Part shown: positions 54,625 through 64,000 of the stretch, piece by piece
Position numbering within the stretch: the stretch's first letter is position 1
Layout: every line of letters starts with the position of its first letter
Assembly: GCF_018449795.1 (NCBI RefSeq)
Contig: NZ_JAAVVE010000017.1
Location: 1 to 64,000, forward strand
Direction of reading: 5' to 3'
From: Sphingomonas sp. dw_22
GTDB taxonomy: Bacteria > Pseudomonadota > Alphaproteobacteria > Sphingomonadales > Sphingomonadaceae
DNA: 64,000 nt
The notes under the pieces: model-generated
The model's database searches: none
The model's input: only the letters and a program-made list of their open reading frames with translations
What the model was told of the DNA's origin: nothing
Program-made: the position numbers and the translations under genes

Positions 54625-54700
54625 GGACGCATAGCTCAGTTGGTAGAGCAGCTGACTCTTAATCAGCGGGTCCTTGGTTCGAGCCCAAGTGCGTCCACCA
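54625..54700 (+). tRNA. tRNA-Lys (anticodon CTT)
   Basis: Acceptor GGACGCA pairs with TGCGTCC; anticodon stem GCTGA/TCAGC with loop CTCTTAA gives anticodon CTT; GGTTCGAGCCC T-arm and encoded CCA are present. The start of the accessory region on its 3' side suggests use as an integration site. Confidence 0.95.
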
Positions 54701-54735
54701 TTTTTTCGTTTAAATTCAACGAGCTATCGCTAACC

Positions 54736-54762
54736 AGCCGGATTTTTTCCGGCTCTTTTTTT
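54736..54762 (+). terminator. Intrinsic terminator after tRNA-Lys
   Basis: AGCCGG (54736-54741), loop ATTTTTT, CCGGCT (54749-54754), then a T-run to 54762. Confidence 0.85.
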
Positions 54763-60679: not shown

Positions 60680-60753
60680 AGCTCACCCCTAGTCCGCGCA
60701 ACCGGGCGCGACGATCCGCGCGCGATGCGCCCGCCGTGCGACAATAGAAAGCA

Positions 60754-63700
60754 TCAATTTATCGGCCTCCGGATCGCCATGAACGCCGAGCGGAACTCGA
60801 TCGAGAGGCCAGCCTGCGCTGCTGCCGCAGCTGCGGCAGTCAGGGCCGGGTGCATCGTCCCCTGCCGAATGTCCCACATGGGGTGCCGGATAACGTAGGC
60901 CCGGCTGCCCGCGATGACCGCCTCCAGGCCCGCGATCGTCGTCCTTGTCGACTGCGGCAGAGCCGCGTGAACGCGATCTGCGGCGCGCCCGGCGACGCCC
61001 GACCAATGCGTCGGCGAGAAGTCGATGGGCGCGGTGGCGTCCAAGCACAGTCGTGTCATGTCGATCGCCAAGCGCCAGTCGAGAATGCTGTGATAGGCTA
61101 GGTTGCCATAGTCCCGCATGCATTCGTGACAGGAGGTCTGGCACGCAATGCCGTGATCGTCCGGCCTAGCCATCGCCTCGAACATGCCGAGCATCCGCGG
61201 CGCCAGGATGTCCCCGAGCAGCGCCTCGAATTCGGTAGGTGTGCCGAGATGGGTGCTGTAGCCCGCGCCGTTCTCCAAAGTGTCGGACAGGAACACCTGG
61301 CCTATGACGGCGCCCGCAGCGTCACGTGTGGTGCGGATGCCGGCCTTCAGCTCTGTGTCGCTGACGTCCAGCCTGACAGCCGCCGCCCGGCGAAGCAGGA
61401 AGCCGAACGAGTAGAGCGCGGCACGCCCCTCGACGTCGAGTGGATCCGCGAAGACGCCAGCGGGCCATTGTTGCACACCTGCGACCAGCACGTCGGTCTG
61501 GCTGATGGCCGCCAAGGCCCGCGGATCGGGACCATCGAGCGGCTGACCGTTCGCGGGATGCCCAATCTTGTCGAGCGCCTGACGCGTCGCCCAGGTCTCC
61601 CCCCATAACTTCTCGAACTCGAAGAGCTGGCCATTGTTGTCGTTGATGACGTGGACCGTCTGCTCACCACTGTGGATCTCGAAGTTTCGGTGCGGGACAA
61701 GCGGTAGGCCAGCGAGGCCCAGCTTCGGCCGGGTGGCACGCGGTGTCCACTCAAACGTGCCGTCGTAGTCCCTCTCGGTCCGGTATCGCGTCCGGAAGCC
61801 TCGCGGCTCGGCCAGGTTCACCACGTGGTAGTCGCCCGCCCCGGCACCGCAGACACCACAATTTGCGGCGCCCGACGGGCTCGGGTCGATCGACTGGCAG
61901 AAGCGGCAGATGCCGGTGGGGATTGGAGGGCCGAGCGGATCAGGCACCTCGTCAGGCCTGCCACGCACCATCTGGTAGTCGACAACGCCAATCGCCGTAT
62001 GGATCATTCCCTCCTTCACCGTCTCCGAGCCCGGCGCGAACTGGCTGATGGCCAGGTCGAGGGGCCGATCGACGACGTCGGGGGGCGGCAACTGGCCCCG
62101 CGGTCGGTCATGATAGAGGAAGCGCGTCCGCGTAGGGAATCCGAACATCGGAAGGACGCCCGCATTCGATAGACGCTCGCTGAGCTGTGTCTGCACGAGG
62201 CGCGGGCTGGCGACGGCCGCGTCGATCGCCGGAAGCAGTCCAGTCGCAACCCAGGCCTCCAGCTGGGGCTGCTGCGCCTGCAGCTGCGGCTTCGCGGCGT
62301 GCAGAAGCAAATCGCAGAGCTCCGAGATCCGCGCCGCGTTCGCCATGATCCAACCGGCGACCAGCGTGCGCACGGTCGCGCCTGGCGGCCCGCTGGGTGC
62401 CAGCACCGGCTGCGTCCACGCGGCCGTCTCGCCGAACTCGCCATGGACACTGTCGCCGCTTGCCCCCGGAAAGAGCTGAAGCGCCGAGAAGGCCTCGCGC
62501 AACACTTCCTTCGCCAGCACCCGCTTCACGATCGGCTCGACGCCAAGATCGACATATGGCTGGGGCGGCGGGTCGGCGGTGATCCGCTCAGGCCGCTGAA
62601 AGTAGTAGTCGTCGTGGCTGCGGCCCCGGCACAAGGTCAACGCGAGGGAGAGCGCGCTCCCGCGGCGTCCCGCGCGGCCCACGCGCTGCTGGTAGTTGAA
62701 CCTCAGCGGCGGCATGTTCGCCATCATGACGGCCAGAAGCGAGCCGATGTCGACGCCGGCCTCCATGGTGGTTGTGACGCTGAGCAGGTCGACAGTGTCG
62801 ACCAGGTCGATCTCTTCCGGCGCAGGCAGGCAGACGCCCTGGAACAAGCGCTGGCGCTTCCTCGCGTCAGCCTTGCCAGTCTGCCCAGTCATCTCCTCGC
62901 AGTTGAGACGGAAGAGATCGCCAGCCTGCTCCGCGAGGTAGAGGTAATAGTCGCCCGCGGTGGCACCAGTGCCCCTGGCCTGCGGAGGGCCGAGCGGCTG
63001 CTGGCAGTCGGTGCAGACGGTGCCGCTCGCGTGGAGGTGTACACGGCGGCATGACGTGCACTCCCACGAGTTGGCTCCTGCGCGAGCGACCCTCAGCCGG
63101 TCCGGCTGGATCAGCCAATCCACGACGAGTCCGCCATGGGTGAGCCTAGACTCGACGTCGGTGGTCAGGGCCGCCACCGGGCGGCCGGCCGCCGACGCGA
63201 CTGCGGTCAGATAGTCGTTCACGAAGCCAGGCGGCGGGGCGCCGGGCGTGCCGATCGCCCGGAACGGCTCACCGTCAATGCGCCGCCGCTCTCCCAGGAG
63301 CCGCAACACGCCGTCAGCCGCCTCGACGACGGTGGAGTCGCCGTCGCCGGGAGCGCCTGCTCCAACGGAGGCGTAACCAATCTGGAGCGACTCCAGACCG
63401 CGGCGGCCCGAGGCGAAGATAACCCTCAGTATCTCCGCATGGGCGGTGCGCCGAAGCCTTTGCAGGTGATCGACCTGCTGGACTGAGAGCCCGCTGGCGT
63501 TCGGTGATGGCGGAACCGTCCCCCAGTTAAACAGGTCTCGCCAGCTGCCAGACCGGTCTGCGGTGTCGGTCCACAGGCTCTCGAGACCGTAGCCACCCGG
63601 GTTGATGCCCGCAGCGAGCAGCCGGAGCTCGGCGTCTGCGAACAGCGCCGACACGAGGAACGGCCCGGACGTCCCGGCGATGATGGCGGCCGCCGCCTGC

Positions 63701-64000
63701 GCGTTGGTCATGCCAGGGTGCGCGGGACTTGACTGCGCCGCCATCGGCCCTGCGGCCGCCATGAGCACCAGAGCCTCCTGCGGCGAGCCCAGCTGGAATG
63801 CGCTTGCGGCCGAAGCCTGCGCGGGTGTGAGCGTGGCCCCGGAGAGCTGTAGCTGGAAAGCCGCCGGCCCCTGACCGCTGACGTCGAGCGCGGCGACGAG
63901 CGCCTGGCGGACCGCGTCGAGATGGTGTGACTGGCGCATGCCGGCCGAGAGCTTGGCGGCATCTTGCCGGCTGTCGGAGAACACCACGAGCTTCCGGTTG
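60754..64000 (-). CDS. Superfamily 2 helicase with DUF1998, partial (DruE-like)
   Basis: Open at the window edge; the C-terminal about 1080 residues are present. VVFSDSRQDAAKLSAGM starts the second RecA lobe; motif V TTTMEAGVDIGSLLAVMM and motif VI NYQQRVGRAGRRG follow near residue 420-440 of this fragment. Zinc-type Cys groups occur in CTSCRRVHLHASGTVCTDC, CRFCQSIDPSPSGAANCGVC and CQTSCHECMRDYGN; the last lies in the C-terminal DUF1998-type domain. This architecture is that of Druantia DruE and DISARM DrmA/DrmB relatives. Motifs I-III should lie beyond 64000. Confidence 0.88.
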   Translation of the reverse strand, partial: NRKLVVFSDSRQDAAKLSAGMRQSHHLDAVRQALVAALDVSGQGPAAFQLQLSGATLTPAQASAASAFQLGSPQEALVLMAAAGPMAAQSSPAHPGMTNAQAAAAIIAGTSGPFLVSALFADAELRLLAAGINPGGYGLESLWTDTADRSGSWRDLFNWGTVPPSPNASGLSVQQVDHLQRLRRTAHAEILRVIFASGRRGLESLQIGYASVGAGAPGDGDSTVVEAADGVLRLLGERRRIDGEPFRAIGTPGAPPPGFVNDYLTAVASAAGRPVAALTTDVESRLTHGGLVVDWLIQPDRLRVARAGANSWECTSCRRVHLHASGTVCTDCQQPLGPPQARGTGATAGDYYLYLAEQAGDLFRLNCEEMTGQTGKADARKRQRLFQGVCLPAPEEIDLVDTVDLLSVTTTMEAGVDIGSLLAVMMANMPPLRFNYQQRVGRAGRRGSALSLALTLCRGRSHDDYYFQRPERITADPPPQPYVDLGVEPIVKRVLAKEVLREAFSALQLFPGASGDSVHGEFGETAAWTQPVLAPSGPPGATVRTLVAGWIMANAARISELCDLLLHAAKPQLQAQQPQLEAWVATGLLPAIDAAVASPRLVQTQLSERLSNAGVLPMFGFPTRTRFLYHDRPRGQLPPPDVVDRPLDLAISQFAPGSETVKEGMIHTAIGVVDYQMVRGRPDEVPDPLGPPIPTGICRFCQSIDPSPSGAANCGVCGAGAGDYHVVNLAEPRGFRTRYRTERDYDGTFEWTPRATRPKLGLAGLPLVPHRNFEIHSGEQTVHVINDNNGQLFEFEKLWGETWATRQALDKIGHPANGQPLDGPDPRALAAISQTDVLVAGVQQWPAGVFADPLDVEGRAALYSFGFLLRRAAAVRLDVSDTELKAGIRTTRDAAGAVIGQVFLSDTLENGAGYSTHLGTPTEFEALLGDILAPRMLGMFEAMARPDDHGIACQTSCHECMRDYGNLAYHSILDWRLAIDMTRLCLDATAPIDFSPTHWSGVAGRAADRVHAALPQSTRTTIAGLEAVIAGSRAYVIRHPMWDIRQGTMHPALTAAAAAAAQAGLSIEFRSAFMAIRRPIN

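Follow-up and report, generated by a model that had tools for sequence, protein, structure and literature searches.

A recurrent cassette of a cytosine methyltransferase, a GHKL ATPase and a PP_RS20740 family protein beside a putative Druantia type IV module at a tRNA-Lys gene of Sphingomonas sp. dw_22

Two sets of genes past the tRNA-Lys gene

The stretch of DNA analysed here (the window) comprises bases 1-64000 of contig 9 (79,162 bases) in the 4.37 Mb, 96-contig assembly of Sphingomonas sp. dw_22. Its last part, which follows a tRNA-Lys gene, carries genes of defence type. A first-pass annotation of the bare sequence had joined a methyltransferase, a Vsr endonuclease, a GHKL ATPase, a 388-amino-acid (aa) protein and a helicase into one system. 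The genes themselves proved real, namely those of the C5-methyltransferase, Vsr, the acidic open reading frame (ORF), the 388-aa protein, the GHKL protein and a helicase cut by the window end. Extension past 64000, which that annotation had advised, completed the helicase (1,840 aa) and revealed DruL-like and DruF-like genes beyond it. The plus strand after the tRNA-Lys (CTT) gene thus holds the C5-methyltransferase, Vsr and a 63-aa acidic ORF. Taken in the direction in which they are read, the minus-strand genes are those of the DruF-like protein, the DruL-like protein, the DruE helicase, the GHKL ATPase and the 388-aa protein. We refer to the DruF-DruL-DruE genes as module A and to the set between 55610 and 60679 as cassette B. 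The features are as follows.

54625..54700, plus strand: tRNA-Lys (CTT), by ARAGORN; probable integration site of the island
55610 or 55697 (start) to 56758, plus strand: C5-cytosine DNA methyltransferase, cassette B; Pfam DNA_methylase, 163 bits
56838..57299, plus strand: Vsr mismatch endonuclease, optional in cassette B; TIGR00632, 138.9 bits (cut-off 97.85)
57382..57573, plus strand: 63-aa acidic ORF, doubtful member; open frame following the stretch GGAGAAGG
57609..58775, minus strand: 388-aa PP_RS20740 family protein, cassette B; NF047698 of NCBIfam, 361.5 bits (cut-off 200)
58775..60679, minus strand: 634-aa GHKL ATPase (paraMORC-like), cassette B; Pfam HATPase_c_3, 53 bits (cut-off 25)
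Contig 60754-66276 (60754..64000 inside the window), minus strand: DruE helicase, 1,840 aa; PADLOC DruE4
Contig 66273-67208, minus strand: DruL-like; PADLOC DruL4
Contig 67157-69922 (L005:14158-16923), minus strand: DruF-like; PADLOC DruF4
Contig 5, 91219-91285 and 92542-92590 (L079), near the contig end: partial copies of the tRNA-Lys 3' part in the same genome

The closest relative of cassette B was found in Sphingomonas quercus, of the same family, which was the sole match of a genome-contig scan with a two-sequence alignment. There, the methyltransferase, Vsr, GHKL and 388-aa genes stand together, with 86, 79, 80 and 64% identity, respectively, and no DruE, DruF or DruL match was found within 34 kb. 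The core genes were also found together, free of DruE, DruF and DruL, in G800 (same genus, 19 kb), G749 (13.8 kb, with no Vsr match in this stretch) and G1172 (19 kb). Scans of viral contigs gave 10 loci with the 388-aa alignment and 35 with the GHKL alignment, 8 of them close and 27 matching mainly in the ATPase part. When these were merged and duplicate contigs counted once (L043=L041, L048=L040, L049=L042), 15 distinct viral contigs carried the 388-aa gene. All 13 with sequence before that gene showed the order methyltransferase, GHKL, 388-aa on one strand; the sequence of the other two (L036 and L038) starts only with the 388-aa gene, and they stand outside the testable set. That set amounts to 18 loci, i.e. 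five genomes (the window, S. quercus, G800, G749 and G1172) and 13 viral or prophage contigs. GHKL, 388-aa and C5-methyltransferase genes occurred together in all 18 loci. DruE was present in one of them, the window, and the DruE/F/L-free set was present in the other 17. Vsr was found in 5 of the 18 (the window, S. quercus, G800, G1172 and L046). The reciprocal viral search gave the 388-aa gene in 8/8 close GHKL loci, and GHKL in 8/8 of the 388-aa loci with preceding sequence.

The methyltransferase gene is convergent to the other two in the five genomes and in line with them in the viral contigs. With start codons picked by rule, 8 of the 10 loci measured have GHKL and 388-aa frames that overlap, by 1-14 nucleotides (nt); in the remaining two the gap is no more than 10 nt. 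Protein distances of the three core genes were correlated at 0.97, 0.90 and 0.89 across 15 of the 18 loci (without G800, L039 and L050), values reached in none of 5000 permutations. As far as sequences can tell, these correlations show that the three core genes have been little reshuffled. The methyltransferase of L046 is 27% identical to that of the window, as against 39-86% in the other 13, and so may have been exchanged there. In the same contig, a frame following the cassette and Vsr (L046:11775-12365) resembles an HNH endonuclease by eye, which makes it a candidate for the nuclease of this copy. Splits between two frames were seen in the 388-aa gene of G800 (L017:11038-12334) and in the GHKL gene of L039, both of which were left out of the respective alignments; the G800 split is due to decay or to a sequencing error.

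Seen from the side of the helicase, we compared 36 other DruE-type loci, comprising 8 plasmid regions (8 of 18 plasmid DruE records were taken in), the genome G164 and 27 viral loci. Profile searches gave a 388-aa relative in none of the 36 and a close GHKL relative in none; a distant GHKL protein was present in two viral DruE loci (E 1e-8 and 5e-7). Vsr was found near DruE in 1/9 plasmid or G164 loci and in 1/27 viral loci, and one locus came from scanning the viral contigs with the window DruE as the sole query. One system of methyltransferase, Vsr, GHKL, 388-aa protein and helicase is therefore not supported from either side, DruE, DruF and DruL being absent from 17/18 cassette loci and the 388-aa gene from 36/36 DruE loci. 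The trio of helicase, GHKL and 388-aa genes recurs nowhere else examined; GHKL and the 388-aa protein stay with the methyltransferase, and the helicase does not. By sequence comparison, the three core genes are thus shown to be linked and co-diverging, independently of module A in the loci examined. Two DruE loci deserve separate mention: an Alisedimentitalea plasmid (L026) has a nearby C5-methyltransferase and an enzyme of MvaI/BcnI type, and the G164 locus (L030) has two C5-methyltransferase matches and Vsr.

The helicase, of which 1,081 of the 1,840 codons fall inside the window, is of Druantia type, as had been supposed. It matched the PADLOC model DruE4 with 1782.8 bits over residues 2-1838, as compared to 1624.6 bits for DruE2 and 637.1 for DruE1, and carries the motifs GTGSGKT, DELH and QRVGRAGR. 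The DruL-like protein matched DruL4 (66.6 bits, residues 18-303) and the DruF-like protein gave a weak match to DruF4 (30.4 bits), restricted to residues 585-771. PADLOC defines type IV by DruE, DruF and DruL, without DruM and DruG, in the available portion of PMC8565338. The present locus agrees in having DruE, DruF and DruL, in the order F-L-E, with no DruG model matched among the nine proteins scanned. It differs in its DruF, which has the C-terminal half only, behind a long acidic low-complexity stretch (residues 69-520; 23% Asp+Glu against 7% Lys+Arg) that replaces the usual N-terminal half. The C-terminal half aligned with five other DruF proteins, the N-terminal half found no match, and coding bias runs along the whole frame. 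Type II, to which the cluster had at first been likened, was discarded, since no DruG was found among the nine proteins, DruE2 scored below DruE4, the best models were DruE4 and DruL4, and DruF and DruL are separate genes. Judged by these models, module A (contig 60754-69922) is a predicted Druantia type IV system with an odd DruF. Among nine DruE relatives from plasmids and G164, tblastn matched DruL in seven and DruF in three; beside a Deinococcus helicase, both were found weakly by PADLOC and neither by tblastn. DruE was found at E < 1e-100 in 2 of 259 genomes of the family, our own included.

Proteins of cassette B

The methyltransferase exceeded the dcm cut-off (130.3 bits against 100.65) and carries the motifs PPCQ, ENV and QxRxR. 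The acidic ORF was rejected as a conserved component, as no relative was found in 108 other genomes of the family, nor in the stretches from S. quercus, G800, G749 and G1172.

In the GHKL protein, residues E50, N54, D79, G81, G83, G128, G131, G133, G199 and T200 were invariant among 17 sequences; we take them to form the ATP site, from what is known of the superfamily. Its structure model (predicted local distance difference test, pLDDT, 80.4) resembled Hsp90 (Z 17.3, 296 residues, root-mean-square deviation (rmsd) 3.9), MORC3 (Z 17.1, 304 residues, rmsd 3.8), topoisomerase VI-B (Z 15.9, 311 residues, rmsd 3.6) and MutL (Z 15.8, 295 residues, rmsd 4.3), scores that are too similar to pick one relative. 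No PD-(D/E)xK (DUF4263) domain was matched by Pfam at E 0.1, the C-terminal part of the model being barely covered by the fold search, and Pfam found no kinase-type HEF_HK domain. At E < 1e-20, GHKL occurred in 3 of 396 genomes of the order, our own included, and no match was found in plasmids or phage records. A 116-base piece at the end of contig 38 of the same genome (37811-37926, L003) is 73% identical to part of the window GHKL gene.

We kept the 27 distant viral GHKL loci (L051-L077) out of the cassette count. The 388-aa gene was found in none of them, a C5-methyltransferase match in 16 and Vsr in 11. One of seven of their GHKL proteins analysed with NCBIfam exceeded the cut-off of the BbrUII family: L069 holds a true BbrUII/HgiDII restriction enzyme (682.1 bits, cut-off 550) between a C5-methyltransferase and Vsr. 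The 388-aa gene was not found in L069.

The 388-aa protein belongs to the PP_RS20740 family (NF047698), an NCBIfam entry without assigned function. In the accessible text of PMC9630843, the gene of that name in Pseudomonas putida KT2440 was a hit in a furfural-tolerance evolution experiment and was called hypothetical. The structure model (pLDDT 86.5) has the fold of a class-I methyltransferase (Foldseek E 4e-5; VIA Z 12.8, 202 residues, rmsd 4.0). The cofactor glycines of class-I methyltransferases usually lie in the loop after the first strand. In the 388-aa model the loop at this position reads LPGxDLLD, without GxGxG, and a later strand carries NxDxC. Both motifs and an N-terminal WHxxxKxxxRxxQW were invariant or nearly so in 19 sequences. 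The window protein gave no Pfam, PADLOC or PHROG match, Pfam having been applied to the window frame alone. PADLOC on the 19 family members gave one match, Csx28 at E 0.0079, which we took as chance, and a sequence search of the PDB with the family profile gave a best E of 0.18. No restriction-fold nuclease appeared in the fold list for the model, which is no proof of absence. The family is rare: counting our own genome, it was present in 2/298 sampled genomes of the family, 1/385 of the class and 2/398 of the phylum, in 0/14 control genomes and in 1/61 genomes around G1172 (G1172 itself). No plasmid match was found, nor was there one in a search with the G1172 relative.

The tRNA-Lys site

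ARAGORN placed tRNA-Lys (CTT) at 54625-54700, thereby confirming that the island adjoins this gene. A rodA-tRNA-Lys query matched 39 of 41 same-genus genomes, the match in G1353 being weak, while the GHKL gene was found in the three genomes of the order noted above; the block is thus accessory rather than core, as the first reading had it. The view that a tRNA gene is here adjoined by an accessory island of defence type is supported. The described shift of Tyr codons from TAT to TAC was also borne out, with TAT 124 and TAC 49 in 15 ORFs upstream of the tRNA (those with GC content at third codon positions, GC3, above 0.75 out of 36 mechanically chosen ORFs of at least 200 aa), as against TAT 25 and TAC 58 in seven island genes. 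Gene GC content is nearly constant (0.64-0.68) on either side of the tRNA, and composition by itself is hence weak evidence.

The 3' part of tRNA-Lys (54654-54702, 49 nt) recurs without a mismatch on contig 5, at a distance of about 3.3 kb from the contig end. Its orientation there is the one to be expected of an island with one end on contig 9 and the other on contig 5. A second copy, a degenerate one, is situated 1.3 kb closer to the contig end. ARAGORN found no tRNA gene at the contig 5 copy, and these partial copies are possibly the far end of the island. Partial copies also occur about 8, 9 and 21 kb downstream of tRNA-Lys in G091, G911 and G1349 of the same genus. Contig 5 was compared with the 1.6 kb past the rodA-tRNA match in 29 same-genus loci. 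The tRNA repeat was matched in 28 of the 29, and no other DNA match of contig 5 to the far flank was found in these loci; a translated comparison gave many short, scattered pieces of low identity, which we took as noise. That contigs 9 and 5 adjoin as one island is therefore an inference, the far flank being unmatched in relatives. Two other copies of the cassette lie near tRNA genes. The cousin cassette of G800 lies about 1.1 kb after a tRNA-Lys (CTT) that follows a frame resembling, by eye, window 51374-53404, and the G1172 copy is adjoined by tRNA-Leu and an integrase. Just past the partial copies on contig 5 lies an autotransporter gene, and contig 9 holds more accessory genes at 71074-78480 (L005:18075, L006), encoding an unknown 244-aa protein, DUF6615, a trypsin-like peptidase, an AAA/DUF4143 protein and a ParE toxin.

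Such a site could also have gathered unrelated gene sets by chance, with subsequent loss of function. The repeated partial copies at tRNA-Lys, the DruF without its usual N-terminal half and the split genes of G800 and L039 speak for this. Against it, the genes of the window have unbroken frames and conserved motifs, and coding bias extends over the entire DruF frame. We consider chance assembly and decay very improbable.

Two modules and a probable 5-methylcytosine-marked barrier

We favour, at a probability of about 0.6, the reading that two independent defence modules are stacked at tRNA-Lys, Druantia type IV and a restriction-modification-like cassette B, the latter of which would probably mark the cell's own DNA and block unmarked DNA. 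Several findings weigh against it. DruE and GHKL lie on the same strand with a 74-nt gap, and a pattern scan found no terminator between them, so that joint expression is possible; promoter and terminator scanning gave no sigma-70-type promoter (0.7 expected by chance) and two terminator-like sites (3.8 expected). The methyltransferase scored 236.0 bits with the PADLOC DruM2 model, nearly equal to the 240.2 bits of the best model, MTase_II, and C5-methyltransferases lie near DruE in 8 of the 36 other loci (4/9 plasmid or G164, 4/27 viral), which is a raw count. A link of this methyltransferase with Druantia is therefore possible, as is a loose tie between Druantia and C5-methyltransferases in general. 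The distance correlations of the core genes partly reflect common ancestry of whole loci. The window GHKL protein stays far below the cut-off of the BbrUII/HgiDII model NF050001 (60.9 bits against 550, residues 28-217). Finally, no nuclease was found among the three core genes, and Vsr, the sole known nuclease, is absent from 13/18 loci; the missing nuclease is the weak point of a restriction-like reading.

The spacing of DruE and GHKL, the DruM2 score and the methyltransferases near DruE could all be accommodated by a single composite system, a Druantia variant whose DruF-DruL-DruE genes would have acquired the methyltransferase (as DruM) together with Vsr, GHKL and the 388-aa protein. We hold this to be improbable and rejected it in the form of a Druantia II variant, as DruE was found in 0/17 other cassette loci and the 388-aa gene in 0/36 other DruE loci. 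S. quercus has all four genes, for methyltransferase, Vsr, GHKL and 388-aa protein, side by side and no DruE, DruF or DruL in 34 kb. The methyltransferase with its DruM2 score sits in the island, but accompanies cassette B elsewhere. Of the proposed coupled operon of helicase, ATPase and unknown protein, the junction between GHKL and the 388-aa gene held, these being the only overlapping genes of the minus-strand trio (1 nt). The coupling to the helicase did not hold, given the 74-nt gap and the two gene sets; the 'operon' is the meeting point of two sets, with joint transcription possible.

Under the two-module reading, known families suggest how cassette B would act. The methyltransferase would mark host sites with 5-methylcytosine (5mC), and Vsr would repair the T:G mismatches left by deaminated 5mC. 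The GHKL ATPase would dimerise on ATP and clamp or loop DNA. The PP_RS20740 protein, its constant partner, may read or act on unmarked DNA, whereby incoming DNA would be blocked. The parallels with Iyer et al., with PMC8011034 and with BbrUII/HgiDII suggest a barrier marked by 5mC and gated by ATP, in which GHKL and the 388-aa protein would act as a pair.

The GHKL ATPase is, as the first-pass annotation had proposed, of the kind described from restriction-modification neighbourhoods. In the part of Iyer et al. 2008 (PMC2292703) consulted, sets in which MORC or paraMORC ATPases accompany methyltransferases, Vsr and helicases are described as restriction-modification systems, and DNA looping is proposed. 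The combination of GHKL ATPase, cytosine methyltransferase and Vsr is common to both, whereas in that portion of the text a helicase is usually in the set (1/18 loci here), and cassette B has a partner with a methyltransferase fold. A 2021 paper (PMC8011034), in the excerpt available, describes a C5-methyltransferase with a paraMORC-like kinase (HEF_HK) and a response-regulator-like partner (Response_reg_2), with Vsr often near. This is likewise a set of three, of C5-methyltransferase, GHKL protein and small partner, with Vsr optional. The partner in cassette B, however, is PP_RS20740 and not response-regulator-like, as far as that excerpt describes it, and Pfam detects no HEF_HK. BbrUII/HgiDII enzymes share the ATPase part (residues 28-217), and the L069 enzyme likewise lies between C5-methyltransferase and Vsr, but the window protein scores far below the family cut-off and no 388-aa gene was found in L069; given that score, cassette B may be said to work like a BbrUII/HgiDII-type system, not to be one. 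GHKL-Shedu (paraMORC3, VcSduA) also employs a GHKL ATPase in phage defence, but carries, in the accessible part of PMC12137116, a C-terminal PD-(D/E)xK nuclease, of which Pfam found none in the window GHKL. Going by these portions of the literature, the kind, a C5-methyltransferase with a paraMORC-type ATPase and often Vsr, is already in print. The particular set of methyltransferase, GHKL and PP_RS20740 is unnamed in the libraries and literature searched, i.e. open-licence PMC titles and abstracts, with subscription papers mostly outside.

The lack of a nuclease in the core leaves room for another role, in which DNA of foreign or prophage origin that lacks 5mC is clamped or compacted by GHKL and the 388-aa protein, and so silenced or reorganised without cutting, or in which they serve the element that carries them. 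The resemblance of the GHKL model to MORC3 and other DNA-acting GHKL proteins would suit such a role. Moreover, viral or prophage contigs make up 15 of the 20 records in which the 388-aa gene occurs (the viral collection was scanned whole and the genomes by samples), and in L034 the frame preceding the cassette resembles an integrase by eye. On the other hand, the constant partnership with a methyltransferase and the frequent Vsr are the usual pattern of restriction-modification, and NCBIfam gives the related BbrUII/HgiDII family the name of a restriction enzyme. We regard silencing or service to the element as unlikely.

Returning to cassette B as a barrier, we tentatively propose a more specific form, which is possible though doubtful in its particulars: a class of its own of prophage-carried, ATP-dependent DNA barriers with no dedicated nuclease, in which the methyltransferase-fold protein, having lost the standard cofactor loop, is the sensor or effector of a MORC-like clamp.

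Separating the cassette from Druantia avoids naming a false composite system. Through its link to a C5-methyltransferase and a MORC-like ATPase in 18/18 loci, the 388-aa family, which has no function in NCBIfam, gains a testable role. If a methyltransferase fold without its cofactor loop does work with a MORC-like clamp, the cassette would offer a small bacterial model for the action of MORC-type ATPases on DNA.

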